DNA from: a virus
Length of the DNA: 21,956 nt
Direction: 5' to 3' (one strand)
IMG/VR virus record: IMGVR_UViG_3300017963_000802
Coordinates: 1 to 21,956 of that record
Shown here: one piece after another, positions 5,689-20,551 of the stretch
Numbering within the stretch: position 1 is the first letter of the stretch
Layout of the letters: the number at the start of each line of letters is the position of its first letter
Notes under the pieces: generated by a model
Databases searched by the model: none
Told to the model about the DNA's origin: nothing
What the model saw: only the letters and a program-made list of their open reading frames with translations
Made by a program: the position numbers and the translations under genes

Positions 5689-5765
5689 ACGATTACGAGA
5701 CTGCGAGCCGTTTTGTAGCTACTATGAGCAAGCGGCTGTGCGCGGCCAGCACCAGCACCACGTAG
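5631..5765 (+). other. Coding-like -1 frame continuation of the 4816 gene
   Basis: In the -1 frame relative to the upstream gene, codons from about 5631 to the TAG at 5763-5765 read as plausible helical protein, including SLGRLYDTVAEGLNDYE and ASRFVATMSKRL. The zero frame ends at 5688 with an unconvincing tail. The -1 frame would close the otherwise empty 88-base gap before the next ATG at 5777. An AAAGAAG stretch lies at 5628-5634 (zero-frame codons AAG AAG preceded by A). Only about 25 codons lie beyond the zero-frame stop, so openness alone proves little. This could be a sequencing indel, a programmed shift or chance. Confidence 0.4.
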
Positions 5766-5776
5766 GAGAGACGGAG

Positions 5777-6898
5777 ATGGCAAGGCAACCGATTGTGATC
5801 ACCACCCTGCAGGAAGATCTGAAGAAGATCGGACTGTACACCGAAACGGACCAAGAAGCGCCAGGCCCCGAGCCGGATCAAGAGGGTGGCTACACAGGCG
5901 ACAGCGACGAGGAGCCCGAGGACGAGCCCGACACCATCAGCGAGATGGACGAGCCTGAAGACGAGCCCGCGGAGGAGCCTGAGATGGATGACGACGATGC
6001 CGAAGAGGCTATCGAAGCCATGGGCACTCTCGCACGCCACTTTCTGCATCAGCATGAGCCCCTCGGCAAGCCTGTGGGAGCAGTCACGGAGTCGCGTCGT
6101 CGGCGCCGTCAGTCTCGCTATGCCAAGGCGCAGCGGTCTAGCAACCCCACGGTGCGGATCAATTCCCTGCTCGAGGAGGTGTCCGACATCGTCGGTGACA
6201 TCCACCGGACGCGCAAGGAAGAGCAGATCAAGGGATTTGCGAACATCGCCGTGATCGCCGACAAGCTGGCCGGCACCTTCAGCGGCTGGGGCATGTCTCT
6301 CGAGGAAGGCAACCTGTACAAGGTTGGCGCCGTCATGAAGAAGCTCTCCGAGGATGCTGCCACCATGGCCGTACGGCTGGAGCAGCCCGAAGGCGAGCCC
6401 GAGGATGACGACGAAGGCGACATGGACGAGATCGGCCCCCGCGGCGGTCCGCCCGAAGATGACGACGAAGGCGACATGGACGAGATCGGCCCCCGCGGCG
6501 GTCCGACCGACGACGCCGAGGTCGATGCGCTCTTCAAGAAGTTCATGGCCAAACTTCTGGACGCTCTGCAGCTCTATCACGACGTGACGGGCAAAGAGGA
6601 AGCCGACGAGCCCGAGGATGACGAGGACGAAGTCGACGTCGATGTAGAGGTCGATGTCGATGAGCCCGAGGATGACGAGGGTGAGGAGGACGAAGACGAG
6701 CCCGAGCTGGATGAGGGCGACGACGAGGATGATGACGAGGACGAGCCGGAGGTGGAGCCCGAGGAAGAGGCCATCGCCGAAGCTCGCAAGCGTCTCGCTG
6801 ACATGAAGGGCCGCCTTCGGGAGAAGAAGGTGGTGAAGGCTGGCAAGAAGGGAAAAGGCCGAAAGAAGCGAGTCCTCAAGGGAGGGAGGGCTCACTAG
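5777..6898 (+). CDS. Highly acidic prohead-core-like protein with a tandem 18-residue repeat
   Basis: A 373-residue protein. The start is ATG 5777 (MARQPIVITTLQEDL), with AGGAG at 5764-5768 upstream. An earlier in-frame GTG at 5738 has no such site. The protein alternates helical segments (residues ~75-200) with long Asp/Glu/Pro runs, and ends in a very basic tail (KKVVKAGKKGKGRKKRVLK). Two exact copies of PEDDDEGDMDEIGPRGGP follow one another near residues 208-243. T4 encodes a very acidic prohead core protein (gp67) between portal and protease, and position plus composition make this a functional analogue candidate. Homology is not shown. A role in the scaffold core with the basic tail contacting partners or DNA is inference. 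Confidence 0.8.
   Translation: MARQPIVITTLQEDLKKIGLYTETDQEAPGPEPDQEGGYTGDSDEEPEDEPDTISEMDEPEDEPAEEPEMDDDDAEEAIEAMGTLARHFLHQHEPLGKPVGAVTESRRRRRQSRYAKAQRSSNPTVRINSLLEEVSDIVGDIHRTRKEEQIKGFANIAVIADKLAGTFSGWGMSLEEGNLYKVGAVMKKLSEDAATMAVRLEQPEGEPEDDDEGDMDEIGPRGGPPEDDDEGDMDEIGPRGGPTDDAEVDALFKKFMAKLLDALQLYHDVTGKEEADEPEDDEDEVDVDVEVDVDEPEDDEGEEDEDEPELDEGDDEDDDEDEPEVEPEEEAIAEARKRLADMKGRLREKKVVKAGKKGKGRKKRVLKGGRAH
6398..6505 (+). repeat. Tandem duplication of a 54-bp unit inside the acidic protein gene
   Basis: Two head-to-tail 54-base copies (6398-6451 and 6452-6505) differ at one base (GAG versus GAA, both Glu). They encode two identical 18-residue units. The near-identity at the DNA level points to a recent duplication by slippage or unequal recombination. 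Confidence 0.9.
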
Positions 6899-7084: not shown

Positions 7085-8677
7085 ATGAAGATCGAGCTAA
7101 CCGAAGACGCGAGACCAGGGCCGGGCCAAGAGTGGCTGTGCGACTCGCTGCCTATCACCGTGCAGTTGGTGGAGGACGGGGCGGACGGTGGACGCCTCGT
7201 CGTGCGTGGGGAGTTTGCTCGATCAGGTGTGGCCACAGAAAACAAGCGGGTCTATCCCGAGACTCTCTGGGAGCGGGAGATCAAGAGACTGTCTCCGCAG
7301 ATGCGGGAGAAGAAGCTGTTTGGTGAGCTGGACCATCCGAATGATGGGCGGACCCAGCTCGCCCGCGTGTCTCATGTGGTCACGGGCCTGGAGGCAGCGG
7401 ATTCGGGCCACATCGTTGGTGAAGCAGAGGTCTTGGGGACTGCCCGGGGGAACGACCTTCGGGCCATGCTCCAAGCCGGGTGTAAGGTTGGAGTGTCCTC
7501 GCGCGGCTACGGTTCGACGAGGACTAACTCGAAGGGTGAAGAAGTTGTCCAGGAGGACTACAATCTCGTGACATTCGATTTTGTAGCCGAGCCGGCCGAC
7601 AATACTGCGTACCCAGACGTATTCAGCGAGGACAAGGAGAAGGGCATGGGCATCCAAGCTCAGAAGCAACAGGATCAGGCCAAGGCCAAGGCCTTCGCTG
7701 CTCGGGTAGAGCAGGAGGCTGCCGCGAGGGAAGCGGGGTCGACCGGAGACGACATGCAGAAGAAATTCGAGAACGACATCATCTCGAATCTCGGGAAGCT
7801 TTCGGCGGAGGCGCGCGAGAAGATCAAGGCCGACCTTATGGCCGACCCCGAGGTTGGTGGAAGTCTCGAGGCCATCGAGCAGATCAAGCGGGCGTTGTCG
7901 CCCTTCCTCACACAGGAAGACGCCGACGAGCGCACCGCGCGGCTCGAGCGCACCGTCAAGGAGCAGGAGCTGAAGCTGAAGGAGAGTGAGCAGCAGATCG
8001 AGCGGCTGTCCTCTCTGGCGCGCGAGGCGGGGTACAAGTACTTCTTGGAGCGCACGCTTCAGGACAACCCCGACAAGGCACTGGTCTTGAAGCTGGTAGG
8101 CGATTTGGCTCAGTACGAGACCGCCGACGCCTTGAAGGATGCGCTGCACGGCATTCTCGACGAGATCAAGGAGCGCCAGGAGCAAGAGGCGGCACGGCAG
8201 GCGGAGCATCAGGCCCGCGAGGAAGAAGCCGAGCGACGAGCACAGCAGGAGCGTGCGCGAGCGCAGGAGGTCGAGACCGGACTCAAGGAGGACGTCACGA
8301 AGCTCACCGACGCTCTCGAGAAGGCGCTCCAGGCGAACAAGAACTTGGGTCTGCAGCTTTACGCTGAGCGACGGCTGGAGGCACATCCTCAGAAGAAGAC
8401 GATCCGCAAGCTCATCGAGAGCACGGGTCTCACTTCGAAGGATGAGGTCGACGAGATCATCGAGGATCATCGGATTCCCGAGCGCGACTCGGACGACCTG
8501 GCAGCCATCCGCGCCCGCGTTCGCAGCGTGACCCAAGGTGGGCGTTCCACAACGCCTGAGCAAGAGGAAACTCCCCCTCCGGCCGCACGTCGGCTTGAGG
8601 AGAGCGACTACAACGGACTAGGCGTCGACCTATCCACGCTCAAAACACTTTCGGGCATGGGTGCTCGGAAAGGGTAG
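7085..8677 (+). CDS. Prohead protease (T4 gp21-like) fused to a coiled-coil scaffold domain
   Basis: Residues 1 to ~180 form a T4-type prohead protease, which matures the head by cutting scaffold, capsid and internal proteins. The family layout is visible: NKRVYPETLW (53-62), FGELDHP with probable catalytic His84, AGCKVGVSSRG with catalytic Ser at 138 or 139, and VTFDFVAEP with Asp165. Residues ~190-530 are Lys/Glu/Ala/Gln-rich heptad-like helix (for example residues 270-310 and 355-410), as expected of a scaffold. T4 has these as separate genes 21 and 22. The ATG at 7085 has no good ribosome-binding site but follows the stop of the -1 open frame by one base. An internal start at 7646 may give free scaffold. 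The major capsid gene follows. Confidence 0.9.
   Translation: MKIELTEDARPGPGQEWLCDSLPITVQLVEDGADGGRLVVRGEFARSGVATENKRVYPETLWEREIKRLSPQMREKKLFGELDHPNDGRTQLARVSHVVTGLEAADSGHIVGEAEVLGTARGNDLRAMLQAGCKVGVSSRGYGSTRTNSKGEEVVQEDYNLVTFDFVAEPADNTAYPDVFSEDKEKGMGIQAQKQQDQAKAKAFAARVEQEAAAREAGSTGDDMQKKFENDIISNLGKLSAEAREKIKADLMADPEVGGSLEAIEQIKRALSPFLTQEDADERTARLERTVKEQELKLKESEQQIERLSSLAREAGYKYFLERTLQDNPDKALVLKLVGDLAQYETADALKDALHGILDEIKERQEQEAARQAEHQAREEEAERRAQQERARAQEVETGLKEDVTKLTDALEKALQANKNLGLQLYAERRLEAHPQKKTIRKLIESTGLTSKDEVDEIIEDHRIPERDSDDLAAIRARVRSVTQGGRSTTPEQEETPPPAARRLEESDYNGLGVDLSTLKTLSGMGARKG
7634..7639 (+). promoter_or_regulatory. Strong internal ribosome-binding site before ATG 7646
   Basis: AAGGAG six bases upstream of an in-frame ATG in the protease-scaffold gene. 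The codons involved (AAG GAG) also encode Lys-Glu in the linker, so chance is possible. Confidence 0.5.
7646..8677 (+). CDS. Possible nested scaffold protein from an internal start in the protease gene
   Basis: An in-frame ATG at 7646 (MGIQAQKQQDQAKAKAF, residue 188 of the full protein) is preceded by AAGGAG at 7634-7639 with a six-base spacer. That is better than the signal at the full-length start. It falls at the boundary between the protease domain and the coiled-coil half, so it would yield a 343-residue scaffold without protease. Phage lambda does this with C and Nu3. A second candidate ATG at 7754 (MQKKFENDI) has GGAG at 7745-7748. The domain boundary and the sites are seen; use of the start is inferred. 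Confidence 0.5.
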   Translation: MGIQAQKQQDQAKAKAFAARVEQEAAAREAGSTGDDMQKKFENDIISNLGKLSAEAREKIKADLMADPEVGGSLEAIEQIKRALSPFLTQEDADERTARLERTVKEQELKLKESEQQIERLSSLAREAGYKYFLERTLQDNPDKALVLKLVGDLAQYETADALKDALHGILDEIKERQEQEAARQAEHQAREEEAERRAQQERARAQEVETGLKEDVTKLTDALEKALQANKNLGLQLYAERRLEAHPQKKTIRKLIESTGLTSKDEVDEIIEDHRIPERDSDDLAAIRARVRSVTQGGRSTTPEQEETPPPAARRLEESDYNGLGVDLSTLKTLSGMGARKG

Positions 8678-8742: not shown

Positions 8743-10254
8743 ATGGGCACCGAAGCTCGACAGATTCTACACGAAGACCGCCGTAGGACCGTCGCCGACC
8801 GCAGCTATGTTGGCGCATTGGTTCGGAAATGGAGTGAGTTCCTCGAAGGGCTCCCAGACAGGACGGAGCAGGACCGATACACGCTCGGTGTCACCGCCGT
8901 TCTGATGGAGAACGAGAGTCAGTATCTCCAGAACCTCACCGAGGAAACTCGGACGGTCAACGTCGGTTCATTCACCAAGTTCATCTTCCCGGTATTGCGC
9001 CGGGTGTTCCCCAACCTGATCGCCAACGAGATCGTCTCGGTTCAGCCGATGACGGCTCCGGTCGGCGCGGTGTTCTTCCTCGACTACGTCTACGGCACCA
9101 CCAAGGGACCGACGACGGCAGGCGACATCTTCCCGCGGGACTTCGACCGTGACTACTCCTCGGAGTACATCAACGGCGAGATCTTGGCGACTGGTGACGG
9201 CACCAACTGGGGTGGCACCGGTAACCACCTGACTGCCACCTTGGCCTTCAATCCCGTTAGGGCGCTCGACACCACGCGCGGCTACTCCGTAGTCGTTCGC
9301 GAGCTGAACGCCACGACCGGCGCGACCGTTCAGGAAGCGACGGATGACGGCGCTGGCGGCTTCACGTTCGACCCCACGGGCGCGAACATCGCTGGTACCA
9401 TCAACTACGACAACGGCGCCATCACGGACTTCTCGTTCCAGAACGCGCCGGCCACCGGGAACCCCGTCAAGGCGTACTACTACTACGACGGCGAGCTGAA
9501 CACCAAGGTTCCGCAGATCAACTTGGACGTCAAAAAGGCCGCCGTCGAGGCAGTCCCGCGGCGTCTCAAGGCTCTGTGGTCCGCTGAGGCTGCGGAAGAC
9601 CTCCGCGCGTTCCACGGCGTCGATGCCGAGACCGAGATGGTCTCTGCCATCGCGCAGGAGATCGCGTTGGAGATCGACCGCGAGATCATCCAGCAGCTGT
9701 TCGCGTCCTCTACGGGCACGACCGGCACCTTCGACCGCGTGCCTCCGGCAGGCGTCAACGAGCTGGATCATCTCCGTGCGATGATCACCACCATCAGCAC
9801 GGTGTCCAACCTCATCCACAAGAAGACGCTGCGTGCGCCGGCCAACTGGATCGTCACCTCTCCCGAGGTGTCGGCCCTGCTGACCCAGCTCACGACTCAC
9901 GGCGACTTCCGTCCGCTCTGGGTATCGGGTGGCGAGAGCCCCTACGGCCCGGTGGACATGCCGCGACCCCTCACGCAGCATGGGCAGTTTTCGATCTACA
10001 AGGTCGGAACGCTCATGAACAAGTGGCTCGTGTATGAAGATCCCTTCTTCACCTCAGACCAGATGCTCATCGGTCTGAAGGGCGCGAGCTACCTCGACAG
10101 CGGCTTCGTGTGGGCTCCCTACATCCCGCTACAGGTCACCCCAACGTTCCTCGATCCGAACGACTTCAGCTTCCGTAAGGGCCTCCGCACGCGCTACGCG
10201 TCGAAGCTCCTGCGGAGCGAGTTCTACGGCTCGATCCGGATCCAGAACCTGTAG
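8743..10254 (+). CDS. Major capsid protein, T4 gp23-like, with inserted beta module
   Basis: A 503-residue capsid shell protein. RVFPNLIANEIVSVQPM (87-103) followed by TAPVGAVFFLDYVYG is the hallmark of the T4 gp23 family, near where the mature protein begins its HK97-type fold. The helical N-terminus looks like a propeptide; VLME/N at 53-57 is a candidate L-x-E cut for the gp21-type protease. FAPY-like C-terminal features (GFVWAPYIPLQVTPTF, FRKGLRTRYASKLL) also fit. Residues ~148-255 (ATGDGTNW to YYYYDGEL) look like a surface insertion of beta type, including DDGAGGF and TINYDNG motifs that recur in the tail sheath. AGGAG precedes the ATG, and a terminator follows at 10293. High expression is expected. 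Confidence 0.95.
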   Translation: MGTEARQILHEDRRRTVADRSYVGALVRKWSEFLEGLPDRTEQDRYTLGVTAVLMENESQYLQNLTEETRTVNVGSFTKFIFPVLRRVFPNLIANEIVSVQPMTAPVGAVFFLDYVYGTTKGPTTAGDIFPRDFDRDYSSEYINGEILATGDGTNWGGTGNHLTATLAFNPVRALDTTRGYSVVVRELNATTGATVQEATDDGAGGFTFDPTGANIAGTINYDNGAITDFSFQNAPATGNPVKAYYYYDGELNTKVPQINLDVKKAAVEAVPRRLKALWSAEAAEDLRAFHGVDAETEMVSAIAQEIALEIDREIIQQLFASSTGTTGTFDRVPPAGVNELDHLRAMITTISTVSNLIHKKTLRAPANWIVTSPEVSALLTQLTTHGDFRPLWVSGGESPYGPVDMPRPLTQHGQFSIYKVGTLMNKWLVYEDPFFTSDQMLIGLKGASYLDSGFVWAPYIPLQVTPTFLDPNDFSFRKGLRTRYASKLLRSEFYGSIRIQNL

Positions 10255-10292
10255 GGTTCACTAGCACACTGATTCCTCTCGCTGCTGGAAGG

Positions 10293-10334
10293 CAGGCTCT
10301 GCCGCTCTTGGGCGGTAGGGCCTGTTTTTCTTTT
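10293..10334 (+). terminator. Intrinsic terminator after the major capsid gene
   Basis: CAGGCTCTGCCG (10293-10304) pairs with CGGTAGGGCCTG (10313-10324), twelve pairs including two G-U, possibly thirteen with 10305/10312. TTTTTCTTTT follows at 10325-10334. This is a strong Rho-independent terminator that would separate head-block transcripts from the genes downstream. Confidence 0.9.
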
Positions 10335-10341
10335 GCCCTCG

Positions 10342-10350
10342 TGTTACAGT
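10342..10350 (+). promoter_or_regulatory. Candidate extended -10 promoter after the capsid terminator
   Basis: TGTTACAGT fits an extended -10 (TGnTAnnnT). Transcription would start near 10357, giving a short leader with the GGAGG site of the gene at 10375. No convincing -35 is visible. Its place right after a terminator is what makes it worth listing. Confidence 0.3.
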
Positions 10351-10374
10351 CATCACTCACGGACGGAGGACTAG

Positions 10375-10794
10375 ATGTGCCAAGGAATTACCGACCAAGC
10401 GAAGCTCGTCGAAGCTGAGCTGGCAAGCTTGGGGCTGGACGATCCCATTCCCGAGCCCGAGGCGGACGACCCCGAGGTCACGGTGGCTACGGCGGAGATC
10501 CCGGTGGAGCCGGATATACCTCCAGAGAACATCGGGGACCCTGTTGGAGCAGAGGATCCGGCCGACGAGCCGGACGACACCGACAGGGAGGTTTTGGCTA
10601 AGGCGGCGCAGGCTCAAGCTCGAGCGATCGACCAATTGGGCGTGGCGTTTGAGTCTCTGTACAACCACTTCAAGCAAGCGCGACGGGCGACCGCGGTGCT
10701 TGCTGAAGCTGCAGAGAGGGTGGCGAGCGCTGCCATAGAGGACGACGGCGAAGAAGGAGAGGACGATGGTGGTGAGGTATCGGAAGAGGGCTGA
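10375..10794 (+). CDS. Acidic hypothetical protein, 139 aa
   Basis: Starts MCQGITDQAKLVEAELASLG with GGAGG a few bases upstream. The middle (residues ~25-72) is a Pro/Glu/Asp-rich, probably disordered stretch. Residues ~75-122 form a predicted amphipathic, Ala-rich helix (REVLAKAAQAQARAIDQLG to ERVASAA), and the end is acidic again. KLVE/A near residues 11-15 resembles a prohead-protease site of L-x-E/A type, so it may be head-associated. It is the first gene after the capsid terminator and overlaps the next gene by 29 bases. No family is recognised; a capsid accessory or core protein is possible. Confidence 0.7.
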   Translation: MCQGITDQAKLVEAELASLGLDDPIPEPEADDPEVTVATAEIPVEPDIPPENIGDPVGAEDPADEPDDTDREVLAKAAQAQARAIDQLGVAFESLYNHFKQARRATAVLAEAAERVASAAIEDDGEEGEDDGGEVSEEG

Positions 10795-11215
10795 CAGGGA
10801 CATCGTTATCATTCCGGGCTTGGGTCGCGTGGTGGCAGGACAGGTGCTCGAGGGCTTGGAGTACAGGCGTTACTGCCCCAGCCTGCTCGAGGTTGTGCCC
10901 GAGGCACCCCCTCCGCCGGCAAAGGCCCCTTCTCCGCCCGCTAAGGCCCCTAGGAGACCGCCCAAGGCGAAGAAGGTATCCAAACCTGCCGCGCCTAAGA
11001 AGGCGTCTAAGCCCCCTTCTAAGGCCAAGGAGCCGGCTCCGGAGGCAGCTCCCCCAGGTCCGGTAGCTGCGGCCGAGACTGTTTCGGTAACGGAGAGCGT
11101 TACGGCGGACGTAACTCCATCGCCTCCCGAGCCCGAGTCGGAGACAGAGAAGCCGTCTCCGGCTAAGATGAAGAAGCGGGCGGCCGTACGCCGCCGGAAG
11201 CGAAAGTCATCATGA
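10766..11215 (+). CDS. Small protein with histone-H1-like Lys/Pro/Ala tail
   Basis: A 149-residue protein. ATG 10766 has AAGGAG six bases upstream and lies within the end of the previous gene. Residues 1 to ~48 look like a small beta domain (DIVIIPGLGRVVAGQVLEGL, then CPSLLEVV). Residues ~49-149 are low-complexity Pro/Ala/Lys with PKKAS and KPPSK units, and end in a strongly basic RRRKRKSS. The tail composition is like histone H1 and other nucleic-acid-binding tails. The protein at 15261 has the same layout. I do not recognise a named family; binding to DNA or an acidic partner is inference. Its TGA overlaps the ATG of the zinc-ribbon gene. Confidence 0.7.
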   Translation: MVVRYRKRADRDIVIIPGLGRVVAGQVLEGLEYRRYCPSLLEVVPEAPPPPAKAPSPPAKAPRRPPKAKKVSKPAAPKKASKPPSKAKEPAPEAAPPGPVAAAETVSVTESVTADVTPSPPEPESETEKPSPAKMKKRAAVRRRKRKSS

Positions 11216-11385
11216 ACACCTGTCCCAAGTGCAACTCTCCGGGCCTCCTTGTGGAGGCGTCTCCAGACGGCAAGACGAAGACCCTCCGCTGTCAGAAGTG
11301 CGGCTTCACCGAGGTGAAGGATAACCAAGGCCGCAAGCTCCTGACGGAGGTGATGCCGCAAAGGGGATCCCCACTCCTGAGCTGA
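11212..11385 (+). CDS. 57-residue zinc-ribbon protein
   Basis: A very small gene starting ATG 11212, overlapping the previous stop (ATGA), and ending TGA 11383-11385. It shows CPKC at residues 4-7 and CQKC at 27-30, a clear four-cysteine zinc-ribbon arrangement with about 19 residues between the knuckles. Zinc ribbons of this size often bind nucleic acid or RNA polymerase, or serve as structural clips. No more specific function can be given. The tight overlap and intact cysteine pattern make it a real gene despite its length. Confidence 0.75.
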   Translation: MNTCPKCNSPGLLVEASPDGKTKTLRCQKCGFTEVKDNQGRKLLTEVMPQRGSPLLS

Positions 11386-11388
11386 CTT

Positions 11389-11403
11389 TGCTAGAATCCT
11401 AGC
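11389..11403 (+). promoter_or_regulatory. Candidate extended -10 and inverted repeat abutting a start codon
   Basis: TGCTAGAAT (11389-11397) fits an extended -10 element. With usual spacing, transcription would begin at or next to the ATG at 11404, giving a leaderless mRNA. GCTAG (11390-11394) and CTAGC (11399-11403) also form a five-base inverted repeat around AATC. No ribosome-binding site precedes the ATG. Confidence 0.3.
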
Positions 11404-12147
11404 ATGACAGCAGACAATCCAGCCTTTCAGTCCAAGGTGATGGACCGGGAGGCTTTGGGGAAGTGGATCCTACGGCGGCTTGGCGCTCCTATCTGGAAGG
11501 TCGAGCTGACACAGGACCACCTAGACGATGCGATCGAATCGGCCAAGCGTTGGTTTGCGGCCAAGAAAGGGCTGTTCCGGCTAGCCGAGTTTCGCACGAT
11601 CAACAACCGGCCCGACTACCCGCTGCCCGACGACTGCGATTTCATCATCGACCTCGCCTTCGAGCAGTCGGCGCAGGATATCTCCACCATCTGGTCTCCG
11701 TTCTTGCTGATGGAGGAGGAGATCCCATACGACGTGTTCGCTGCGCCTCAGTCCATCGGACTCTATTCGAGCTACGTCCAGAGCATCCAGTACATCGAGC
11801 AGGCCAAACGCATCACCGGGTCAGAGCTAGACTGGTTCCAGCGCGACCGCCACGTGTACATCTCGCCGACTCCCTCCACTAACCGGAGGATCATCTACCT
11901 CTACAAGACTTCCATCTTCGCAATCAATCAGCTGTCCGAGCGGGACCACGAGCTAATCAAGCGGTACGCGCTTGCTAAGGCCAAGCAGGATCTCGGGCGC
12001 GTACGGTCCAAGTGGGACTTCAACGCGGCACAGGGGACGGCTCCAATCGACGGAGACAGGCTGTTGGACGAGGCTCGGGACGAGATCGAAAAGCTCGAGG
12101 AAGACATCATCCTGGCCGGCTATCCGATGCATTTCTTGGTGGGTTAG
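11404..12147 (+). CDS. Putative neck / head-completion protein, 247 aa
   Basis: Starts MTADNPAFQSKVMDREALG. The N-terminal part (WILRRLGAPIWKVELTQDHLDDAIESAKRWF) has the 'G-x-P-x-x-x-V-E-L-T-x-x-x-x-D-x-A-I-x-x-A' pattern common in phage head-tail adaptor or neck proteins that follow capsid genes. The centre is beta-rich (HVYISPTPSTNRRIIYLYK) and the C-terminus is helical. It lies between the capsid and sheath genes, where T4-like phages place neck proteins, and it is directly coupled to the gene at 12151. The neck assignment is from pattern and position, not full homology. The start has no visible ribosome-binding site and may be leaderless. Confidence 0.65.
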   Translation: MTADNPAFQSKVMDREALGKWILRRLGAPIWKVELTQDHLDDAIESAKRWFAAKKGLFRLAEFRTINNRPDYPLPDDCDFIIDLAFEQSAQDISTIWSPFLLMEEEIPYDVFAAPQSIGLYSSYVQSIQYIEQAKRITGSELDWFQRDRHVYISPTPSTNRRIIYLYKTSIFAINQLSERDHELIKRYALAKAKQDLGRVRSKWDFNAAQGTAPIDGDRLLDEARDEIEKLEEDIILAGYPMHFLVG

Positions 12148-12150
12148 ATC

Positions 12151-12723
12151 ATGGCAACGAAGGTAGAGCCGATCCGTTTGAATGTTCGCCGCAAGGTTGA
12201 GCCTGCAGGCGAGTTCGACATGGAGAATGAGAACCAGGAGCTGCCGGCGATCTGGTCGCAGGAGAAGACGAACGGAGAAGGCACGACCATCGTCTACTGG
12301 TCTCAGGACATCGAAGGCTCGACCTTGGATCCACTCTACAACGAGCCCGAGACTCGCGAGTGGGCAGGCCCCTACCGGTTCAAGGCCTTCGTTGAATGGC
12401 CCGAGCAGGCTTACGAGGTGCGGGAAGAAGGTAACGAGATCAACTGGACCGGACGCTGCTACATCCCACGACTCACCATCGAGGACGCCGAGGCTCCTCC
12501 GCCGAAGGAAGGCGACGTCATTCGTATCTGGGAGATCCCGCACTTCGACGCTTTTGCTCAAGGGATGGAGAGCGGCATACCGCATGCGGGCTACTACTAC
12601 GATCTGACGGGAGTAGTTGAGGACGGACACGTGTTTGACAACCCCGAGTTTGAGGGGTTCTGGTGCGATATCAAGCGGCGTACGGAGTTCACTCCCGAGC
12701 GCCGCGTACTTAACGAGACGTAG
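12151..12723 (+). CDS. Putative virion protein in the neck region, 190 aa
   Basis: Starts three bases after the previous stop, so translation is probably coupled. It contains a beta-rich core (RFKAFVEWPEQAYEV, GRCYIPRLTIED, GDVIRIWEIPHFD) and aromatic-rich loops (TTIVYWSQDIEG, HAGYYYDLTGVV). Such a fold would suit a neck or head-tail joining protein, and the position fits a T4 gp14-like role, but I see no decisive motif. The C-terminus is acidic then basic (WCDIKRRTEFTPERR). Call it a probable structural protein of unknown exact role. Confidence 0.65.
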   Translation: MATKVEPIRLNVRRKVEPAGEFDMENENQELPAIWSQEKTNGEGTTIVYWSQDIEGSTLDPLYNEPETREWAGPYRFKAFVEWPEQAYEVREEGNEINWTGRCYIPRLTIEDAEAPPPKEGDVIRIWEIPHFDAFAQGMESGIPHAGYYYDLTGVVEDGHVFDNPEFEGFWCDIKRRTEFTPERRVLNET

Positions 12724-12737
12724 GAAAGTTAACGGAC

Positions 12738-13238
12738 ATGCCCATCACTGTAGAGATGATGCAGGCGGCTTCGCGAAGCGGCCTGTCGATCGTTTGCGCT
12801 TCATGCGAGTGCTATTGGGAGGCTCGGGAGAAAGGTCTGCCGGGAGATCGCTGCGCAGCGCAAAGCGCGTGCGGCTCTCCTCTCGCGGGAGACTGCTTCC
12901 GAGAGTATCGGGGGATCATGACGGCGGACGCCTTTCGCAGGTTCTGCTTCGCTTGCGGCAAAGACGCTACGCATCACTTGTCGCATCCGAGTTGGACGCG
13001 GGAAATGGGCATCTGCAGCGAGCACGTTGCATGGATGGACGATCCCGATATGCGCCGGCCCCAGCGAGCCGAGGCGCTTGTAGGGAAGAACGGATTTGAG
13101 TTGCCTCCCGAGAACACGCTCATCGGTGCTATCCTACGGACAGAGATGGAATGGGCCGAGCAGGACGACCGGGAATTCGATCCCGAGGCGTTCTTGAAGG
13201 GCGAGGATGACGCTAGCGAAGATCTGGATAAGACCTGA
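12738..13238 (+). CDS. Cysteine-rich, probable two-zinc protein, 166 aa
   Basis: The N-terminal 60 residues carry C20, C23, C25, C39, C45 and C53, and a second cluster follows: C70-x2-C73, histidines at 79, 80 and 83, and C93-x2-H96. The second is a plausible treble-clef or knuckle site. The last ~60 residues are acidic and without cysteine. AGGAAAG at 12722-12728 precedes the ATG. It sits among probable neck genes, where cysteine-rich proteins are not usual, so it may be a regulatory, nuclease-like or DNA-binding protein carried in the operon, or a zinc-stabilised structural part. No family is recognised. Confidence 0.65.
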   Translation: MPITVEMMQAASRSGLSIVCASCECYWEAREKGLPGDRCAAQSACGSPLAGDCFREYRGIMTADAFRRFCFACGKDATHHLSHPSWTREMGICSEHVAWMDDPDMRRPQRAEALVGKNGFELPPENTLIGAILRTEMEWAEQDDREFDPEAFLKGEDDASEDLDKT

Positions 13239-14022
13239 GCAATCAGCAAAGAGCATAGAACGTCTCGTCCGGGAGTGGCCGAAGCGCACGGCCAAGATGC
13301 GGGTCCAGCTCGCCTACCTCGCCGCCCACTACGTCTACCAGCAGGTTTGGGGTAAGATCCCAAACAAGAAAGAGTACGCCGGCTACAAGGGAAGTTTGAC
13401 GGTGTCTCGCATAGGCGGCGTGGACGCCTACGCTGTGTGGGCTGACACACGCAGCCGCAGGGTGCGCAAAGTTGACGCTCGTAAGACCGTTCTGTATGTT
13501 CGTCCGAAGAAAAGATCGACCCGCCGAACGCCACCGGAAATCCTAGTGCTTGAGAGCTTCAACCCCTGGACTGCTAGCACGCTTCCGTTCCACCCGAGCA
13601 AGAAGCACGCGGTTGTGATCTCTCGGCGCGCCAGCAAGCGGGTGGTGAACAAGCTGTCAGAGCAGAAGCGGCGGGAGCGCCGCCTGTGGGAGCCGGAGCT
13701 ACGAAAGGCGGGGGTGCGGAAGATTCGCAAGGACGCCGACGTGAAGATTCCGAAGGGGCTCGAGGCGCTGCCAGAGGTGGCGCTCGACGCTATGAGACTG
13801 GAGTTTGGTCTGGGCACGGCGGCTCGAGCGCACTGGCGTCCGGCGATCTCTCGTTTGAAAAAGAGCGGGATTAAGCAGATAATTCAGACTTCAGGACTTG
13901 CCCAGGCGTTTAACCATCCCGGATTTACAGGCTGGCGTAAGTGGCCGACTAAAACCAGAGGAAAGATCAGCGTCGGAAAGGCTAAGGACTTCTTAGCCTT
14001 CCAGAAGAAGCTGGGAGTCTAG
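13207..14022 (+). CDS. Basic hypothetical protein in the neck/tail-completion region, 271 aa
   Basis: ATG 13207 lies within the end of the previous gene (32-base overlap), with AAGGGCGAGG just upstream. The protein is strongly basic (runs such as RPKKRSTRRTPPE and SEQKRRERRLWEPELRK). An N-terminal helix (IERLVREWPKRTAKMRVQLA) is followed by beta-like segments and a helical second half that ends in KDFLAFQKKLGV. Proteins at this position in other phages act as neck or tail-completion factors, some resembling HK97 gp10, and an N-terminal helix then beta core would fit. No diagnostic motif is visible, so function is open. Confidence 0.65.
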   Translation: MTLAKIWIRPEQSAKSIERLVREWPKRTAKMRVQLAYLAAHYVYQQVWGKIPNKKEYAGYKGSLTVSRIGGVDAYAVWADTRSRRVRKVDARKTVLYVRPKKRSTRRTPPEILVLESFNPWTASTLPFHPSKKHAVVISRRASKRVVNKLSEQKRRERRLWEPELRKAGVRKIRKDADVKIPKGLEALPEVALDAMRLEFGLGTAARAHWRPAISRLKKSGIKQIIQTSGLAQAFNHPGFTGWRKWPTKTRGKISVGKAKDFLAFQKKLGV

Positions 14023-14032
14023 GAGAGACGAG

Positions 14033-14464
14033 ATGAATTCCAAGATCAACAAGCTTTTGGAGGCCATTCGGCGGCAGGTTGTAGAGGAAGAAGGCAAGGA
14101 CAAGGACGACATCACGGCGTACGGTCCGGGCGTCGCGGCCGACGTAGGTGGAGCCTCCACGGCCGACGCTGAAGCCGGCTCCGGCTCTGCGATGAACCCG
14201 ACCAACATCGGCGACACGGTGGATCAGTACATCATGACCATCGCCGATACGATCAGCATCCAGTACGACAAGACACGCGAGGAAGCGCTCAAGTTCGTGT
14301 TCGACGCGGCGACGACGCTGGCCAACGACGGCGACATCCCCGCGCCTCCAGACGATGACGCGGCTGACGAGGAAGTAGCCATCTGGCTCGGCAAGGCGAA
14401 GAGCGTCGACCTTGCGGGGCAGGTGTTGGGCAAGGCGCGGGAGATGCTCGGGAGTCAGGGATAA
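14033..14464 (+). CDS. Tagged internal-protein candidate, 143 aa
   Basis: The N-terminus MNSKINKLLEAIRRQ is a variant of the tag shared by the proteins at 18496, 18928, 19308 and 20544, and has LLE/A, an L-x-E/A site suited to a gp21-type protease. After the tag comes a Gly/Ala/Asp-rich linker (residues ~28-55) and a helical domain (TVDQYIMTIADTISIQYDK, then EEALKFVFDAATTLA). AGGAG at 14021-14025 precedes the ATG. It lies among neck and tail-completion genes, about 4.4 kb from the main tag cluster. I infer capsid targeting and trimming; the mature function is unknown. Confidence 0.75.
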   Translation: MNSKINKLLEAIRRQVVEEEGKDKDDITAYGPGVAADVGGASTADAEAGSGSAMNPTNIGDTVDQYIMTIADTISIQYDKTREEALKFVFDAATTLANDGDIPAPPDDDAADEEVAIWLGKAKSVDLAGQVLGKAREMLGSQG

Positions 14465-14467
14465 TCC

Positions 14468-15226
14468 ATGGCAGAGCCAGTCCTCGAGTCCCCAATCTCT
14501 GAGCAAGAGCGCGAAGCGTTTCTGAGGCGCGTCCGTGGTCAGGACCAGGTAGGCACGGTAGGCCTACGCGACTTCGACCAAGGCCTCGTCGAGACGATGG
14601 GGGCGTTTATCGAGGACCAGCGCTATTGGCTGAACATCGACGGCGTCGATCCTCCTCCCGGACGACCCGGCGTGCTCGTCACGTTCAGCTTTCCCGAGTC
14701 CGAGTTCAAGTCGTACGTCGTTCCGCTCGTGTTGATCCGGCGGGACGACATCTCTCCTGCTATGGAGCGCTGGCATCCAGGCACTCGGACCTACCAGACG
14801 CCGCCGCGGGACGCTCTACCCGTCAAGCTGCCCGAGGACGATACGATCTTCTCCGGAATGGAAGGGCACGACCGTCGAGAGATAGGCCATCAGGCTATGC
14901 CGTTCGACATCTCCTATACGATCTCCTGCATCGCCCACTACCGCGGGGCTATCGGCCAACGGGGACAGGTCCAGGCGGTTTTTCACCACGTACTGAAGAC
15001 CTACGGACCTTACGCGGCGGTCACGCTCTACGACAGTTTGGGGGATCCGAGGCAGTACCACACGTTTACCGAGGGCACGTCAGTACTTGACGAGCACTCC
15101 GAGATAGCAGATCGAATTATCGGGCTGGCGATCAGCATGCGCGTTGAAGCGGAGCTGGACCTCTACGAGCCTGTAACGGTCCGGACCGTCACCCAACCAC
15201 TGATTACCAACCTAACTCCCCTTTGA
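14468..15226 (+). CDS. Putative tail terminator / neck-tail joining protein, 252 aa
   Basis: Starts three bases after the previous stop (MAEPVLESPISEQEREAF). It is mixed alpha/beta: a beta segment with a conserved-looking turn (GVLVTFSFPESEFKSYVVPL), a central loop, then DISYTISCIAHYRG and a helix-strand end (DRIIGLAISMRVEAELDLYEPV). This layout resembles tail-completion or sheath-terminator proteins that cap the tail tube, and the gene lies shortly upstream of the sheath. The T4 counterpart would be gp15 or gp3. No diagnostic residues can be named, so the role rests on fold impression and position. Confidence 0.6.
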   Translation: MAEPVLESPISEQEREAFLRRVRGQDQVGTVGLRDFDQGLVETMGAFIEDQRYWLNIDGVDPPPGRPGVLVTFSFPESEFKSYVVPLVLIRRDDISPAMERWHPGTRTYQTPPRDALPVKLPEDDTIFSGMEGHDRREIGHQAMPFDISYTISCIAHYRGAIGQRGQVQAVFHHVLKTYGPYAAVTLYDSLGDPRQYHTFTEGTSVLDEHSEIADRIIGLAISMRVEAELDLYEPVTVRTVTQPLITNLTPL

Positions 15227-15260
15227 GGGATCGACGAATTTCCTGTAATGTAGGTGCGTC

Positions 15261-15623
15261 ATGGCTAAGTACTACAACCGCGGACGGGGCAACCTTCCCC
15301 TAACTCTCACTGAGGGCCGATCCACTTCGGTTCCTGGCAACTCATGGATCGAGCTGGAAGGGGCAGATCAAACCTGTCCTGCCGTAATGCGCGCCGTGCG
15401 CAAGGGCCTGCTCTACCGGCAGCCCGAATCCAAACCCAAGAAAACTTCCCCCGCGGCAGCAGAGGCGGCTCCGAAGGCTGCTCCCAAGCCGGCGGCGAAG
15501 AAGAAAGCAGAGGCAAAGACCCCAGCCACAGCAGGGGATGAGGCAGGAGCCCCCGCAGCTCCTGATCCGAAGCCTTCGACAGCGGGCAAGTCCAGAAAGA
15601 CAAGCCGAAGCTCCAAGAAGTAG
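15261..15623 (+). CDS. Small protein with H1-like Lys/Ala/Pro tail, 120 aa
   Basis: Residues 1 to ~52 form a small beta-type domain (NLPLTLTEGRSTSVPGNSWI, then CPAVMRAVRKGLL). Residues ~53-120 are Pro/Ala/Lys/Ser low complexity, ending KSRKTSRSSKK. The layout matches the protein at 10766, including a G-R-x-x-x-x-G turn and a 'CP' before a helix, which suggests distant paralogy. AGGTG lies a few bases before the ATG. TGTAAT at 15244-15249 could be a -10 element. The protein directly precedes the sheath gene. Function unknown; an acidic partner or DNA is the likely target of the tail. Confidence 0.7.
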   Translation: MAKYYNRGRGNLPLTLTEGRSTSVPGNSWIELEGADQTCPAVMRAVRKGLLYRQPESKPKKTSPAAAEAAPKAAPKPAAKKKAEAKTPATAGDEAGAPAAPDPKPSTAGKSRKTSRSSKK

Positions 15624-15666
15624 TCGCTCAACTGCTTCTCGTAGCTCTCTGTAGGAGGAAAAGATC

Positions 15667-18348
15667 ATGGCCGAGTTTCTATCGCCTGGCGTATTCATCG
15701 AAGAAGTTCCCTCAGCGGTCCAGACTGTCCAAGCCGTTTCGACGTCCAACATGGCCATTGTCGGCTATACCCCGAAGGGTCCGACCGACGAGGCAACGCT
15801 CATCACGTCGTCCATCCAGTTCGACGAAATTTTCGGCGGCATGGACGCCAACACCTTCACGGGTCACGCCGTCATGGCGTTCTTCGCGAACGGCGGCCGA
15901 CGCTGCTTCGTGGTCCGTGTCGTGCCCAGCGATTCCGTGGAGGCGGACGTCGACATCCTGAGTCGGGTCTACAACCAGTGGATCAACGAGGGCACTGCTT
16001 CAGCCGACCAGCAATTTACGGACTCGGCGCCGGGCACGCCGGCAGACCTCAACACGACCATCGCGGCTTACAACGGCAACGCGACGCCGGCCGGCACCAA
16101 CATGGGCATCGAGATCAGGTGGCGCGGCGCCGGCACTCCGGTCACTACGGAGGCTGTGCGCAACCGCGACGACTCGGCCGATGTGGCTCAGGTAGGCGCC
16201 CCGACTCCCCTACAGTCGTACGAGTTTCGGGTCGATCCTTCATCCCTACCAGCTCTTGCCGAGGGCGACTACAAGCAGTTCGTTGTCGATCCTTCTGACG
16301 ACTTCGTGCTTAACACTGATCCCACCGGAGGCGCCGCTCTCCTATTCACAGTTCCAGCACCGACTGCCGGAACTGTAGGAACGGTCACGACTGCGCAGGG
16401 CTCCGTATGCACCTTCGACTTCGCGACCGGCTACGGTTCTGTGAAGTTTGCGGGGACGGAGGAGGTGGTAGTCGGAGGTGATGCCATCACGATAACCTGC
16501 GACTACACGCCGACCACGGTGTCCTGGAAGATCAGAGACGACGGTGCCGGCAACCTCGAAGATGTCGTCGCGGGCTCTCTGAGCGGCAGCGGCGCGGACA
16601 CCATCAACTACAACGACGGCACCTACGACTTCGAGACGGGCGCCACTACGGCCATCCCGCACGAAGGTGCTCCGCTTCTCGCCGACTACTACTACCAGAT
16701 CTGGGATTGCGACCCCATCTCCAATGGAGCGTGGGCCAACGAAATGCAGGTCCGCGTCAGCGGCAACCTCGACTACTTCACTGTGGCTACCCAGAGCTAC
16801 TCCAGACACGACTTTGCCGTGCTGCAGTACAACTCCGGAACCGGCGAGTACGACGTGACCGAGACCTATGAGGCTCTCGACTTCACCGACTCGACGTCCA
16901 CGCAGTACTTCCCTGATGTGGTCAACGAGCTGTCAGATCTCATCTCCGTCACGACTCCGGGCGGGGACGCCTATCCAGGCAGCCTCGACGGATGGGCCTA
17001 CACGTCCTACTTCGGCGGCGGTGACGAAGACAACACAGCAGGAAACTCGACGTTCGGCGGCACGCAGATCATCCCGGCGGCGATCAACGACTTCAGCGTC
17101 GGCGCTCGGGCGTGCACCATCAACTACACGGGCACGACCAGCGGCGCGCTCACCATCACCGACGACGGCTCCGGCGGCCTGACCGGCTCGGTCGATCCGG
17201 CCTACGCCACGGTCGTCACGGTCGGCGGCGTGACGCTTCAGCCGAATACCATCGACTACGACACAGGCTACGTCAATTTCAAGACGCTCGAGACCATCGA
17301 AGGCGGCACGCTCATCAGCGCCACCTTCTACGTGGAGGCTGAGGAAACTTCCAACACCGACCAGTTCGGCGACGCCAACAAGCGCTTCACCGACTCCGAT
17401 GCGGTGGTGCACTTCCTGGCCGGCGACAACGGCACGTTCACCACGGGTACCTACAGCCGCGCGGAGTTCACCAACCCGACGCTGCAGGCCTCCAAGCGTG
17501 GCCTGTACGCGCTGGACGAGGTAGACGAGCTGCTCAACGTCATCATCCCCGACTTCGCCGGAGATGTGACGGTGACGGGCGACCTGCTCGACTACGCGGC
17601 GAGTCGTGCGAACCTGCCGAGCGGTGGAGATCGCTTCATCATCCTGACGGTGCCTCTCGGCTCCGACCCACAGGAAGCGGTGGATTGGTTCCGCTACGAC
17701 CTCGGACGGTTCAGCAAGTGGGCCGCGCTGTACTGGCCGTGGATCAACGTCGCCGACCCGTTGGTCGACGGCCGCACGCTCACCATGCCTCCCATGGGCC
17801 ACATCGCAGGCATCTACGCTCGGACCGACAACAACAAGTCGGTGGGCAAGGCTCCGGCCGGAACGGTGGACGGCGCGCTGAACTGGCTCACGGGCCTCGA
17901 GTACATTTCGACGCAGGGCGAGCGCGACTACGTCTACCCGAACAAGATCAACCCGCTCATCAGCTCACCTCAGACGGGGCTGGCTGTATGGGGCGCGCGT
18001 ACCATCTCGTCCGAGAGCGAGTGGAGGTACGTACACGCGCGGCGGTTGTTCATGTTCATGGAGAAGAGCATCTACAACTCGACGGCCTGGATCGTCTTCG
18101 AGAACAACGGCCCGCAGCTGTGGGCGAAGATCAAGGGACAGATCGACGGATTCATGTCCGGCCTGTTCTCCGCAGGCTTGTTCTACGGGACGTCGGCATC
18201 GCAGGCGTACTTCGTCATCTGCGACAGCTCCAACAACACCACGTCCACCATCGAGGCAGGACAGGTCATCATCGACGTCGGCGCGGCGCCGAACCGGCCT
18301 GCAGAATTTGTGCGCTTCAGATTTCAGCAGGCAACGATCGCAGCCTAA
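15667..18348 (+). CDS. Tail sheath protein, T4 gp18-like, with beta-module insertions
   Basis: An 893-residue contractile sheath subunit, much longer than T4 gp18 (about 660). The N-terminus MAEFLSPGVFIEEVPSAV and the following TSNMAIVGYTPKGPTD are typical of sheath proteins, as is the C-terminal region (INPLISSPQTGLAVWGART near 761-779, then RRLFMFMEKSI, AEFVRFRFQQATIAA). Residues ~110-560 hold extra beta-rich material with repeated motifs: RDDGAGN (290-296) with TINYNDG (312-318), TDDGSGG (498-504) with TIDYDTG (528-534), and FDFATG near 250-255. These match a motif in the capsid insertion. AGGAGG precedes the ATG. A terminator follows at 18410, and no tail tube gene is recognised after it. 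Confidence 0.93.
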   Translation: MAEFLSPGVFIEEVPSAVQTVQAVSTSNMAIVGYTPKGPTDEATLITSSIQFDEIFGGMDANTFTGHAVMAFFANGGRRCFVVRVVPSDSVEADVDILSRVYNQWINEGTASADQQFTDSAPGTPADLNTTIAAYNGNATPAGTNMGIEIRWRGAGTPVTTEAVRNRDDSADVAQVGAPTPLQSYEFRVDPSSLPALAEGDYKQFVVDPSDDFVLNTDPTGGAALLFTVPAPTAGTVGTVTTAQGSVCTFDFATGYGSVKFAGTEEVVVGGDAITITCDYTPTTVSWKIRDDGAGNLEDVVAGSLSGSGADTINYNDGTYDFETGATTAIPHEGAPLLADYYYQIWDCDPISNGAWANEMQVRVSGNLDYFTVATQSYSRHDFAVLQYNSGTGEYDVTETYEALDFTDSTSTQYFPDVVNELSDLISVTTPGGDAYPGSLDGWAYTSYFGGGDEDNTAGNSTFGGTQIIPAAINDFSVGARACTINYTGTTSGALTITDDGSGGLTGSVDPAYATVVTVGGVTLQPNTIDYDTGYVNFKTLETIEGGTLISATFYVEAEETSNTDQFGDANKRFTDSDAVVHFLAGDNGTFTTGTYSRAEFTNPTLQASKRGLYALDEVDELLNVIIPDFAGDVTVTGDLLDYAASRANLPSGGDRFIILTVPLGSDPQEAVDWFRYDLGRFSKWAALYWPWINVADPLVDGRTLTMPPMGHIAGIYARTDNNKSVGKAPAGTVDGALNWLTGLEYISTQGERDYVYPNKINPLISSPQTGLAVWGARTISSESEWRYVHARRLFMFMEKSIYNSTAWIVFENNGPQLWAKIKGQIDGFMSGLFSAGLFYGTSASQAYFVICDSSNNTTSTIEAGQVIIDVGAAPNRPAEFVRFRFQQATIAA

Positions 18349-18495: not shown

Positions 18496-18552
18496 ATGAA
18501 CAAGCGCATCAATCGGTTGTTGGAGGGCATTCGGCGCGAGCTTGGCGAGGCC
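18496..18552 (+). repeat. 57-bp tag-coding direct repeat, copy 1
   Basis: First of three near-identical 57-base segments (others at 18928-18984 and 19308-19364), each beginning at a start codon. Across the three copies five positions vary, all third codon positions and all synonymous. Confidence 0.9.
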
Positions 18553-18921
18553 GAGACGAAGTCAGACATCAAGGCAGCCATCAAGGCGGCTTGGGCGAAG
18601 GTGAAGGCGGGGGAGAAGCTGAGCAGGACGGACAAGATCGCCCTAGTGGTCGAGGCCATCTTCAAGTCCGAGAAGCGCCCGGCTTTCAACATGGAAACTG
18701 CGGCGGGCCGCTCGCCGCTGACTCTGAACCAGTTCTCTTCGATTGCCCGCAACAACTTAGAGCAGATTAACAACTGGCTTGGGGTGTTGGGGGCCAAGTT
18801 TGCTCCCTATCGCTACAGGGATCCAAGTGTTTACAAGAGCGGTGCGGGGGCTTTCGGCAGGGCTGGTGGAGGGCGCGTATCTCGGAAGGACTCAGCAAAC
18901 CTCTTGCGACGCGTAGGTTGA
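18496..18921 (+). CDS. Tagged internal-protein candidate A, 141 aa
   Basis: The start is ATG 18496, with GGAGG at 18486-18490; the frame is open upstream but that part overlaps the terminator. The N-terminus is the shared 19-residue tag MNKRINRLLEGIRRELGEA, with LLE/G and LGE/A as possible prohead-protease sites. The remainder is basic and helical (IKAAIKAAWAKVKAGEKLS, LNQFSSIARNNLEQINNWL), with a glycine-rich C-terminal stretch (KSGAGAFGRAGGGRVSRK). No domain is recognised. It is the first gene of the cluster and is followed six bases later by the next tagged gene. I infer packaging into the capsid and ejection with the DNA. Confidence 0.8.
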   Translation: MNKRINRLLEGIRRELGEAETKSDIKAAIKAAWAKVKAGEKLSRTDKIALVVEAIFKSEKRPAFNMETAAGRSPLTLNQFSSIARNNLEQINNWLGVLGAKFAPYRYRDPSVYKSGAGAFGRAGGGRVSRKDSANLLRRVG

Positions 18922-18927
18922 GGAACA

Positions 18928-18984
18928 ATGAACAAGCGAATCAATCGGTTGTTGGAGGGCATACGTCGCGAGCTTGGCGAGGCC
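18928..18984 (+). repeat. 57-bp tag-coding direct repeat, copy 2
   Basis: Differs from copy 1 at three bases and from copy 3 at three bases, all silent. Confidence 0.9.
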
Positions 18985-19308
18985 GTGGAGAAGATCAAGC
19001 CGAAGGACGTGGAGGAGTTCGCGGAGGTTGAGGACACCATCAAGTCTCTCATAAAGGGACAATACGGCGGCCATCCTCCCAACTCGATGGACTTCAAGAA
19101 GATCGCAGCGCGCTGTCCGATGTCGGCCGCTAGGATGCGCAGCTTGATCAAGCGCTACCCGAAGACGGTAGCTTCTTGGTTCGGCGGTAAGGATCTCGAC
19201 TTTGAGAAGGCGGCGCCCGCGAAGGGCAGCGGAGCTTATGTCAAGCCGTTCACTCATGTGGTCCGACCCAGCAAGGCGACAGCGGCTTACTTCAGTGTGG
19301 TGAAGTGA
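18928..19308 (+). CDS. Tagged internal-protein candidate B, 126 aa
   Basis: Begins with the identical 19-residue tag, then a charged helical segment (KPKDVEEFAEVEDTIKSLI), a region that could be a helix-turn-helix (MDFKKIAARCPMSAARMRSL followed by IKRYPKTVASWFGG), and a basic Pro/Ala-rich end. GAGGA just before the ATG overlaps the previous stop region. Its own TGA shares a base with the next ATG. No family is recognised. A DNA-binding effector is possible but rests only on the helix-turn-helix impression. Confidence 0.8.
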   Translation: MNKRINRLLEGIRRELGEAVEKIKPKDVEEFAEVEDTIKSLIKGQYGGHPPNSMDFKKIAARCPMSAARMRSLIKRYPKTVASWFGGKDLDFEKAAPAKGSGAYVKPFTHVVRPSKATAAYFSVVK

Positions 19309-19364
19309 TGAACAAGCGCATCAACCGGTTGTTGGAGGGCATACGTCGCGAGCTTGGCGAGGCT
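19308..19364 (+). repeat. 57-bp tag-coding direct repeat, copy 3
   Basis: Same reading frame start as copies 1 and 2; the only changes are silent (for example Asn AAC, Ala GCT). Confidence 0.9.
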
Positions 19365-19604
19365 CCGGTCGACAACTCTGCGAGTGTGGGTAAGACGATC
19401 AAGATCGGAAACCGCAAGCAGGTGGTGACGCGCGACTACGTCTCAGACACTTCGGGCGCTCGAGTCATCCAGTACAAGGACAAGAAGGGTCGTACTCGGA
19501 GCATCTCTCAGCGGAAGGGCAGCGATGCTTGGTTTGGGGACATGCCCGGGAAGGGCGCGGTGAAGGTCGACCTTTCTGCGTTGGGCGAGGCGAAGAGGGT
19601 ATGA
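19308..19604 (+). CDS. Tagged internal-protein candidate C, 98 aa
   Basis: ATG 19308 overlaps the last base of the previous TGA; a GTG one codon earlier is a less likely start. After the 19-residue tag comes a small basic, beta-rich domain (SVGKTIKIGNRKQVVTRDYV, then ARVIQYKDKKGRTRSISQR) and the end VDLSALGEAKRV, which repeats an LGE/A motif. The pattern of short strands and basic turns could be an SH3-like or other small beta barrel, which is inference. The stop overlaps the ATG of the next gene, so the cluster is translationally chained. Confidence 0.8.
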   Translation: MNKRINRLLEGIRRELGEAPVDNSASVGKTIKIGNRKQVVTRDYVSDTSGARVIQYKDKKGRTRSISQRKGSDAWFGDMPGKGAVKVDLSALGEAKRV

Positions 19605-20098: not shown

Positions 20099-20551
20099 AT
20101 GGCAGACGCACCAAAGACTCCGGCTCCTACTCCGGGGGACAAGGCGGAGAAGGCGGTAGAGGTAGCGGGCAAGTTATCGGCGGTGGTGAAGGATCACCAG
20201 CACCAACCGAACAAGTTCGTTGAAGTGATCAGCCAACTTTCGGAGGTCATCACGACGCACGGGATGGCGCCGACGATACTGAGCTGCGGGATCGTCTTTT
20301 CGTTCTTCGCGCTCTTTCGTCCCGAGGGTAAGCCAGCCTACGCGATGTACGGCGGACTGGGGCTCGGGGTGGTGTTGATCCTCGTCGGGGTTTTGCTGCA
20401 CTTGTGGAAGACTTCGCGCGAGAAGCCTCGGACGATGGCGCCGCCTCCGCCGTTGGACCCTCAGTTTGTGGAGACGCTAGATCTATTTCGTCGGATAGTG
20501 GCGCATCATACGACAGCGGATCGAGGAGAAGGACCGCAGGCTGATGAATAG
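20099..20551 (+). CDS. Two-transmembrane-segment protein, 150 aa
   Basis: Starts three bases after the previous stop. The N-terminal ~50 residues are soluble, Pro/Lys-rich then helical. Two hydrophobic segments follow at ~55-73 (MAPTILSCGIVFSFFALF) and ~81-103 (YGGLGLGVVLILVGVLLHLW), joined by a short RPEGKP loop. A cytosolic Pro-rich linker and helix end the protein. It lacks the tag. A holin is possible from topology, but there is no endolysin nearby. Another option is a membrane protein acting with the ejected proteins at entry. It overlaps the next gene by eight bases. Confidence 0.75.
   Translation: MADAPKTPAPTPGDKAEKAVEVAGKLSAVVKDHQHQPNKFVEVISQLSEVITTHGMAPTILSCGIVFSFFALFRPEGKPAYAMYGGLGLGVVLILVGVLLHLWKTSREKPRTMAPPPPLDPQFVETLDLFRRIVAHHTTADRGEGPQADE

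Follow-up and report, generated by a model that had tools for sequence, protein, structure and literature searches.

An all-beta domain shared by the capsid and tail sheath proteins of a phage, and its probable place in the capsid I-domain family

Can one domain be built into both the head and the tail of the same phage particle? The question is raised by a 21,956-nucleotide stretch of viral DNA (IMG/VR virus record IMGVR_UViG_3300017963_000802, positions 1 to 21,956; hereafter the window), which encodes a T4 gp23-type major capsid protein and a contractile tail sheath protein. A preliminary description, made from the letters alone, had pointed out similar peptides in the two proteins. Each of these peptides is present at the residue originally given. 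In the capsid open reading frame (ORF) they are DDGAGGF (residue 201), TINYDNG (219) and KAYYYYDGE (243). In the sheath ORF they fall into copies that we call M2 (DDGAGN at residue 291, TINYNDG at 312, ADYYYQ at 339), M3 (DDGSGG at 499, TIDYDTG at 528, ATFYVEAEE at 552) and M1 (CTFDFATG at 248, CDY at 278). The proteins and the segments discussed here are as follows.

8743..10254, + strand: major capsid protein of T4 gp23 type, 503 amino acids (Pfam Gp23, 1.5e-72; phrog_138 major head protein, 6.8e-71)
9169..9495, + strand: predicted I-domain module in the capsid protein, residues 143-251, from profiles and a structure match (the part first described, residues 201-251, is 9343-9495)
15667..18348, + strand: tail sheath protein, 893 amino acids (Phage_sheath_1, 2.1e-8; Phage_sheath_1C, 1.7e-9; phrog_23, 1.8e-56; PDB sheath proteins, down to 3e-74)
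15667..15966, + strand: N-terminal part of the conserved sheath core, residues 1-100 (residues 1-118 align to solved sheath proteins)
16279..16512, + strand: sheath copy M1, residues 205-282, probably a diverged copy (the partial third match of the preliminary description), from hhalign to a copy in the relative L105
16489..16704, + strand: sheath copy M2, residues 275-346, shorter (independent E-value 9e-18 to a module profile that contains M2 itself; hhalign 95% to the capsid copy and 97% to M3)
17005..17346, + strand: full-length sheath copy M3, residues 447-560 (aligned with the capsid copy by hhalign at 97%, E 3e-11; predicted structure matching the phage P1 gp23 I-domain)
17479..18345, + strand: C-terminal part of the conserved sheath core, residues 605-893 (residues 604-890 align to solved sheath proteins)

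One domain in two virion proteins

Relatives of both proteins were drawn from viral contigs to build profiles. In pairwise comparison, the capsid segment scored higher than every one of 1000 shuffles when aligned with either good sheath copy, though not when aligned with the third. Profiles of the short modules, compared with hhalign, matched for capsid and M2 (95%, E 3e-8), capsid and M3 (74%, E 3e-5), and M2 and M3 (97%, E 4e-11). As a control, the same three modules were compared with eight segments from the same two proteins and reached at most 2.5%. With the full module and more relatives, a capsid-only and a sheath-only profile matched each other at 97% (E 3e-11) over 90 columns. When 4725 ORFs were searched with hidden Markov models (HMMs), the sheath-only model found 32 capsid proteins at E<1e-3, including that of the window (E 9e-8), and the capsid-only model found 18 sheath proteins. 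Cross-class HMM searches of reversed sequences gave no match at E<0.01, and the sheath-only model had none there even at E<=0.1.

Could this likeness be chance, or simply generic beta-rich composition? The unit is short, G, T and D are abundant in it, and M1 taken alone does no better than controls. However, the reversed-sequence and segment controls were negative where the cross-class matches were strong, the match extends over 90 columns, and both predicted structures described below fit the same solved domain. These results refute chance likeness for the capsid copy, M2 and M3, whose scores lie far above those of the beta-rich controls, and as a general explanation we regard it as extremely improbable. 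Sequence profiles and structural models agree that the same insertion module is present in two otherwise unrelated virion proteins, an HK97-fold gp23-type capsid protein and a sheath protein with a subtilisin-like domain, as had been proposed. On this evidence, the capsid, M2 and M3 segments are confirmed as copies of one all-beta domain family of about 100 residues.

The module is longer than the segments first noticed. Its start, seen with more diverse relatives, is a strand region of the form GDG...PVRP that lies about 55 residues upstream of the earlier boundary in the capsid protein and about 50 residues upstream in M3. Five positions are invariant or nearly so, D24, G26, G28, Y45 and G48; a pattern of D and G plus one Y is what would be expected of residues that maintain the fold. 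An exact DNA pattern for the DDG motif found no match in the window record; codon choices differ. No Pfam or NCBIfam model matched the module at its curated score in the copies that were searched; the distal tail protein family DUF2460 of gene transfer agents gave a sub-threshold match (E 0.06). A match to the Piffle 'capsid decoration protein', lying on the opposite strand, was discarded as a chance hit.

Relation to the capsid I-domain

AlphaFold2 models of the capsid copy (predicted local distance difference test score, pLDDT, 82.7) and of M3 (pLDDT 91.5) are confident predictions, made up almost entirely of beta structure. For both, the best PDB match found by VIA-align is chain 9ukm_A, which is the phage P1 capsid protein gp23 by sequence and entry title, and the matching region is its I-domain (PMC12810830). 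The capsid copy aligned to residues 197-304 (Z 7.2, 96 residues aligned, 3.4 Å; next rank 5.3) and M3 to residues 197-305 (Z 7.5, 94 aligned, 3.5 Å), followed for M3 by the capsid protein of jumbo phage S6 (residues 147-292, Z 6.5) and the T4 baseplate protein gp6 (Z 5.3). Among all PDB sequences, too, 9ukm_A was the chain that the sheath-only profile matched best (residues 227-294, E 0.002), and a mixed profile matched the same region (E 4e-4). In a viral structure library, both models matched the uncultured sheath protein A0A6J5S5A9, the capsid protein of ctDOT22 and the baseplate wedge proteins of ACP17 and Kuja, with probabilities of 0.99-1.00. Because two models and two profiles converge on the same residues of one chain, we find the I-domain identity convincing. 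Sequence identity between the P1 domain and the window modules is only 15-21% in structural alignments. The shared module thus withstood the refutation proposed with the preliminary description: both predicted structures match the P1 gp23 I-domain, and the profiles score far higher than beta-rich controls.

The position of the capsid copy is consistent with this identification. PDB matches of the window capsid protein are T4 gp23 chains (down to 3.5e-27), and T4 gp23 aligns with its residues 80-127 and 249-486. The module lies in the gap between these stretches, at the E-loop position, which is also where P1-type capsid proteins have their I-domain. The window protein is a gp23 homologue with an insert at the place corresponding to the I-domain of T4 gp23 and gp24 (PMC9958956). 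Taken with a fold match at moderate Z, profiles and model indicate that the capsid copy is the known I-domain of gp23-type capsid proteins. By the same kinds of evidence, including an M3 fold match that is also at moderate Z, the sheath copies appear to belong to the capsid I-domain family. In the sheath protein, PF04984 and PF17482 both score above cut-off and describe a split core of subtilisin-like and C-terminal domains; two clear copies, and probably one diverged copy, are inserted between the N- and C-terminal halves of that core. P1 gp23 has a single copy, in the capsid, whereas the window phage has a further two or three in the sheath.

Several results weigh against this identification. 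A VIA Z of about 7 lies within reach of models that have no true match. Foldseek found nothing in the PDB for the capsid copy at E<=0.001, and the capsid-only full profile had no match among PDB sequences. The capsid and sheath models were compared through a third structure rather than directly superposed. The absence of T4 gp23 among the VIA matches listed is uninformative in either direction.

Taken alone, the partial third match in M1 (residues 248-280) is insignificant, with control pairs scoring equally high. A relative provides additional information. L105 has four clear module copies in its sheath protein, and a profile of the M1 region matches, in register, the L105 copy adjoining M2 (hhalign 90%, E 1.6e-6). 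As this match is in register with a clear copy, we accept M1 as probably a diverged module copy; the partial third match first described therefore stands by way of L105 and not by any significance of its own. A further candidate, M0, at sheath residues 100-200, was rejected, as profile comparison gave it no support, even though the L105 sheath has a clear copy at residues 170-228.

Relation to T4 is less direct. The P1 authors describe the P1 and T4 I-domains as structurally similar (PMC12810830). However, the T4 domain has about 60 residues and our searches gave no sequence or structural match between it and the window module, so common descent of the two is not established here.

Beta-rich extra domains are known from other phage proteins. 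Promiscuous immunoglobulin-like (Ig-like) domains on phages were reportedly described by Fraser et al. in 2006 (a reference of PMC10684548), and they too are one beta family recurring across classes of virion protein. The capsid and sheath copies in the window are inserted internally rather than added at the termini. Pfam models of Ig families (I-set, FN3, Big_2 and kin) did not match the proteins or the single modules at curated score, and antibody-type domains matched the capsid-copy model at a VIA Z of only 3.3-4. The extra sheath domains surveyed in PMC9230969 are likewise beta-rich and inserted between the halves of the sheath core; in the parts of that survey available to us they are called Ig-like and no link to the capsid I-domain is made, while here the link is made by sequence profile and fold. 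In the open-access papers searched, we found nothing that places capsid I-domains and sheath inserts in a single family, although this does not prove that no such statement exists. The capsid I-domain and promiscuous phage beta domains in general are therefore already known, and what would be new is the presence of the I-domain family in the sheath.

Distribution, inheritance and neighbouring genes

The module is present in the gp23-type capsid proteins of several isolated phages: phiXF1, QdP_Psa3, EP_H11, Rhizobium phages, SP-15, LIS04 and Vibrio 1.031.O. In Bacillus phage SP-15 (L219, 9030-11547), the module-bearing capsid gene is annotated as two joined pieces around an endonuclease gene. 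Marinobacter phage AS1 and Acidovorax phage ACPWH have tandem copies in siphophage tail-tip proteins, and so do homologues on two plasmid records. These proteins are members of phrog_6128 (no known function, 1200 positions), which is matched by 22 of 27 module sequences (best 1.5e-6); we read them as tail-tip proteins from their place just after the tape measure gene. This unnamed family shares the module with the window, while its carrier protein and tail type differ. In some phages the phrog_6128 protein is divided over two genes (L214 2941-5055, L216 2941-5064, L225). Single-sequence tblastn of the modules against isolated phages returned capsid and tail-tip proteins and no sheath protein, and sheath copies in isolates may lie below its sensitivity.

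Among relatives, the number of sheath copies ranges from 0 to 4. Five ORFs of a 159-kb contig (G013) carry the module, namely those of the capsid protein, the sheath protein and a Baseplate_J / gp6-like wedge protein, along with two that encode small proteins. In a second contig (G014), the sheath protein contains four copies and two other ORFs contain one each, the weaker of these two matching at E 7e-6.

Finding one domain in as many as five virion genes of a single contig could suggest a recent transfer of the capsid module to the sheath gene of this lineage by copying, much like a mobile element. A tree of 58 module copies does not support this. Although it has only 64 columns and its deep forks are unresolved, the capsid copies of this clade cluster together, and M2 and M3 each cluster across phages. 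Since copies group by position across phages, both positions appear to predate the clade; recent movement is disfavoured by these sequences, and we consider recent copying very improbable. Of the mobility originally suggested for the module, what holds is that virion genes reused it at an older date.

Sheath proteins of relatives also contain a second domain (about 115 residues) at three different places, beside or within modules; the window sheath lacks it. It lies near M3 in L001 (sheath residues 490-613), L030, L004 and L082, in M2 in L033, L086, L087, L089, L092 and L083, and N-terminal of M1 in L035 and L050. This domain, which matches no Pfam family at cut-off, does look mobile.

Near the capsid and sheath genes, the window encodes a T4-type portal protein (3009-4778) and a prohead protease (7085-8677). 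Between these two, in a scaffold-like position, is a very acidic ORF (5738-6898) that contains 2.1 repeats of a 54-base unit (6397-6510, 96% match). A similar leader starts five window ORFs (14033-14464, 18496-18921, 18928-19308, 19308-19604 and 20544-20882). It is identical in three of the five (MNKRINRLLEGIRRELGEA), and in those three it includes the motif LGE, which we take to be of the L-x-E kind cleaved by T4-type prohead proteases. The five resemble internal head proteins whose leader targets them to the capsid. Two adjacent ORFs (20998-21585 and 21663-21956) have an N-terminal domain in common (blastp 7e-6). The start of L239, an ORF of G014 with the I-domain module in its C-terminal half, is faintly similar to these two (E 0.025). 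Scanning the window for Rfam families and tRNA genes gave no hits.

Surface position and proposed role

What might such a domain do in both head and tail? In P1, the I-domain projects outward and touches adjacent subunits (PMC12810830); that of T4 rests on the subunit next to it, strengthening the capsomer (PMC9958956). Extra sheath domains are directed away from the tube, and they may act as a cement for the sheath (PMC9230969). By analogy, a place on the virion surface, as first suggested, is likely for the window modules. In the head, each I-domain would lie on the outer surface and brace a neighbouring subunit, as in T4 and P1; in the tail, the copies would project off the sheath surface and add contacts between one sheath subunit and the next, a role put forward for other extra sheath domains. 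We consider it probable that one all-beta domain serves as capsid I-domain and as sheath inserts bracing their neighbours, and that it was copied among virion genes long ago and thereafter inherited in place.

The modules evolve faster than the cores, as a surface part would: mean identity is 58% for the capsid module compared to 75-83% for the capsid core, and 33-44% for the sheath modules compared to 62-67% for the sheath core. Faster change also fits a weakly constrained or host-facing surface, however, which tempers the case for bracing. It is one of the points in favour of an accessory adhesion domain, in which many copies on head and sheath would act as Ig-like domains have been proposed to do, binding cell-surface sugars weakly. 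Surface position and multiple copies fit this idea, sheath domains of this general kind have been proposed to assist adhesion (PMC9230969), and the module shows a likeness to the OAA lectin domain (E 0.011, below cut-off) along with low-Z matches to galectin (~3.5) and carbohydrate-binding structures. Nevertheless, no sugar-binding or Ig-like family reaches its curated score, the conserved D, G and Y positions look structural, and solved I-domains brace subunits, so we think adhesion unlikely. The earlier suggestion of an adhesion or stabilising role is thus narrowed: stabilising has precedent in T4 and P1, adhesion is without positive evidence, and by analogy stabilisation of neighbouring subunits is the likelier role.

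The modules could instead be a docking platform for other virion proteins, such as head decoration proteins, tail whiskers or fibres. In T4, the decoration protein Soc binds at sites that the I-domain linkers help to make (PMC9958956), and a part in tail appendages has been suggested for extra sheath domains (PMC9230969). Against this, neither the window nor its relatives yielded a partner protein, and we rate docking as quite unlikely.

More tentatively, and with rather less than even confidence, bracing by this domain may extend to one superfamily of virion subunit braces with a single ancestor, comprising the capsid I-domain, the extra sheath domains, the gp6-type wedge domain (including that of T4 gp6) and the tandem tail-tip domains. 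If this is true, head, tail and baseplate would be reinforced by the same part, copied between structural genes. The T4 head literature treats the I-domain as a feature of T4-like heads, and the only descriptions of extra sheath domains are as beta or Ig-like inserts of a generic kind. Placing them in one family would give them a testable common role, the bracing of neighbouring subunits, and would partly account for why sheath proteins vary so much in size. The module profile also finds virion proteins that are presently annotated as hypothetical.

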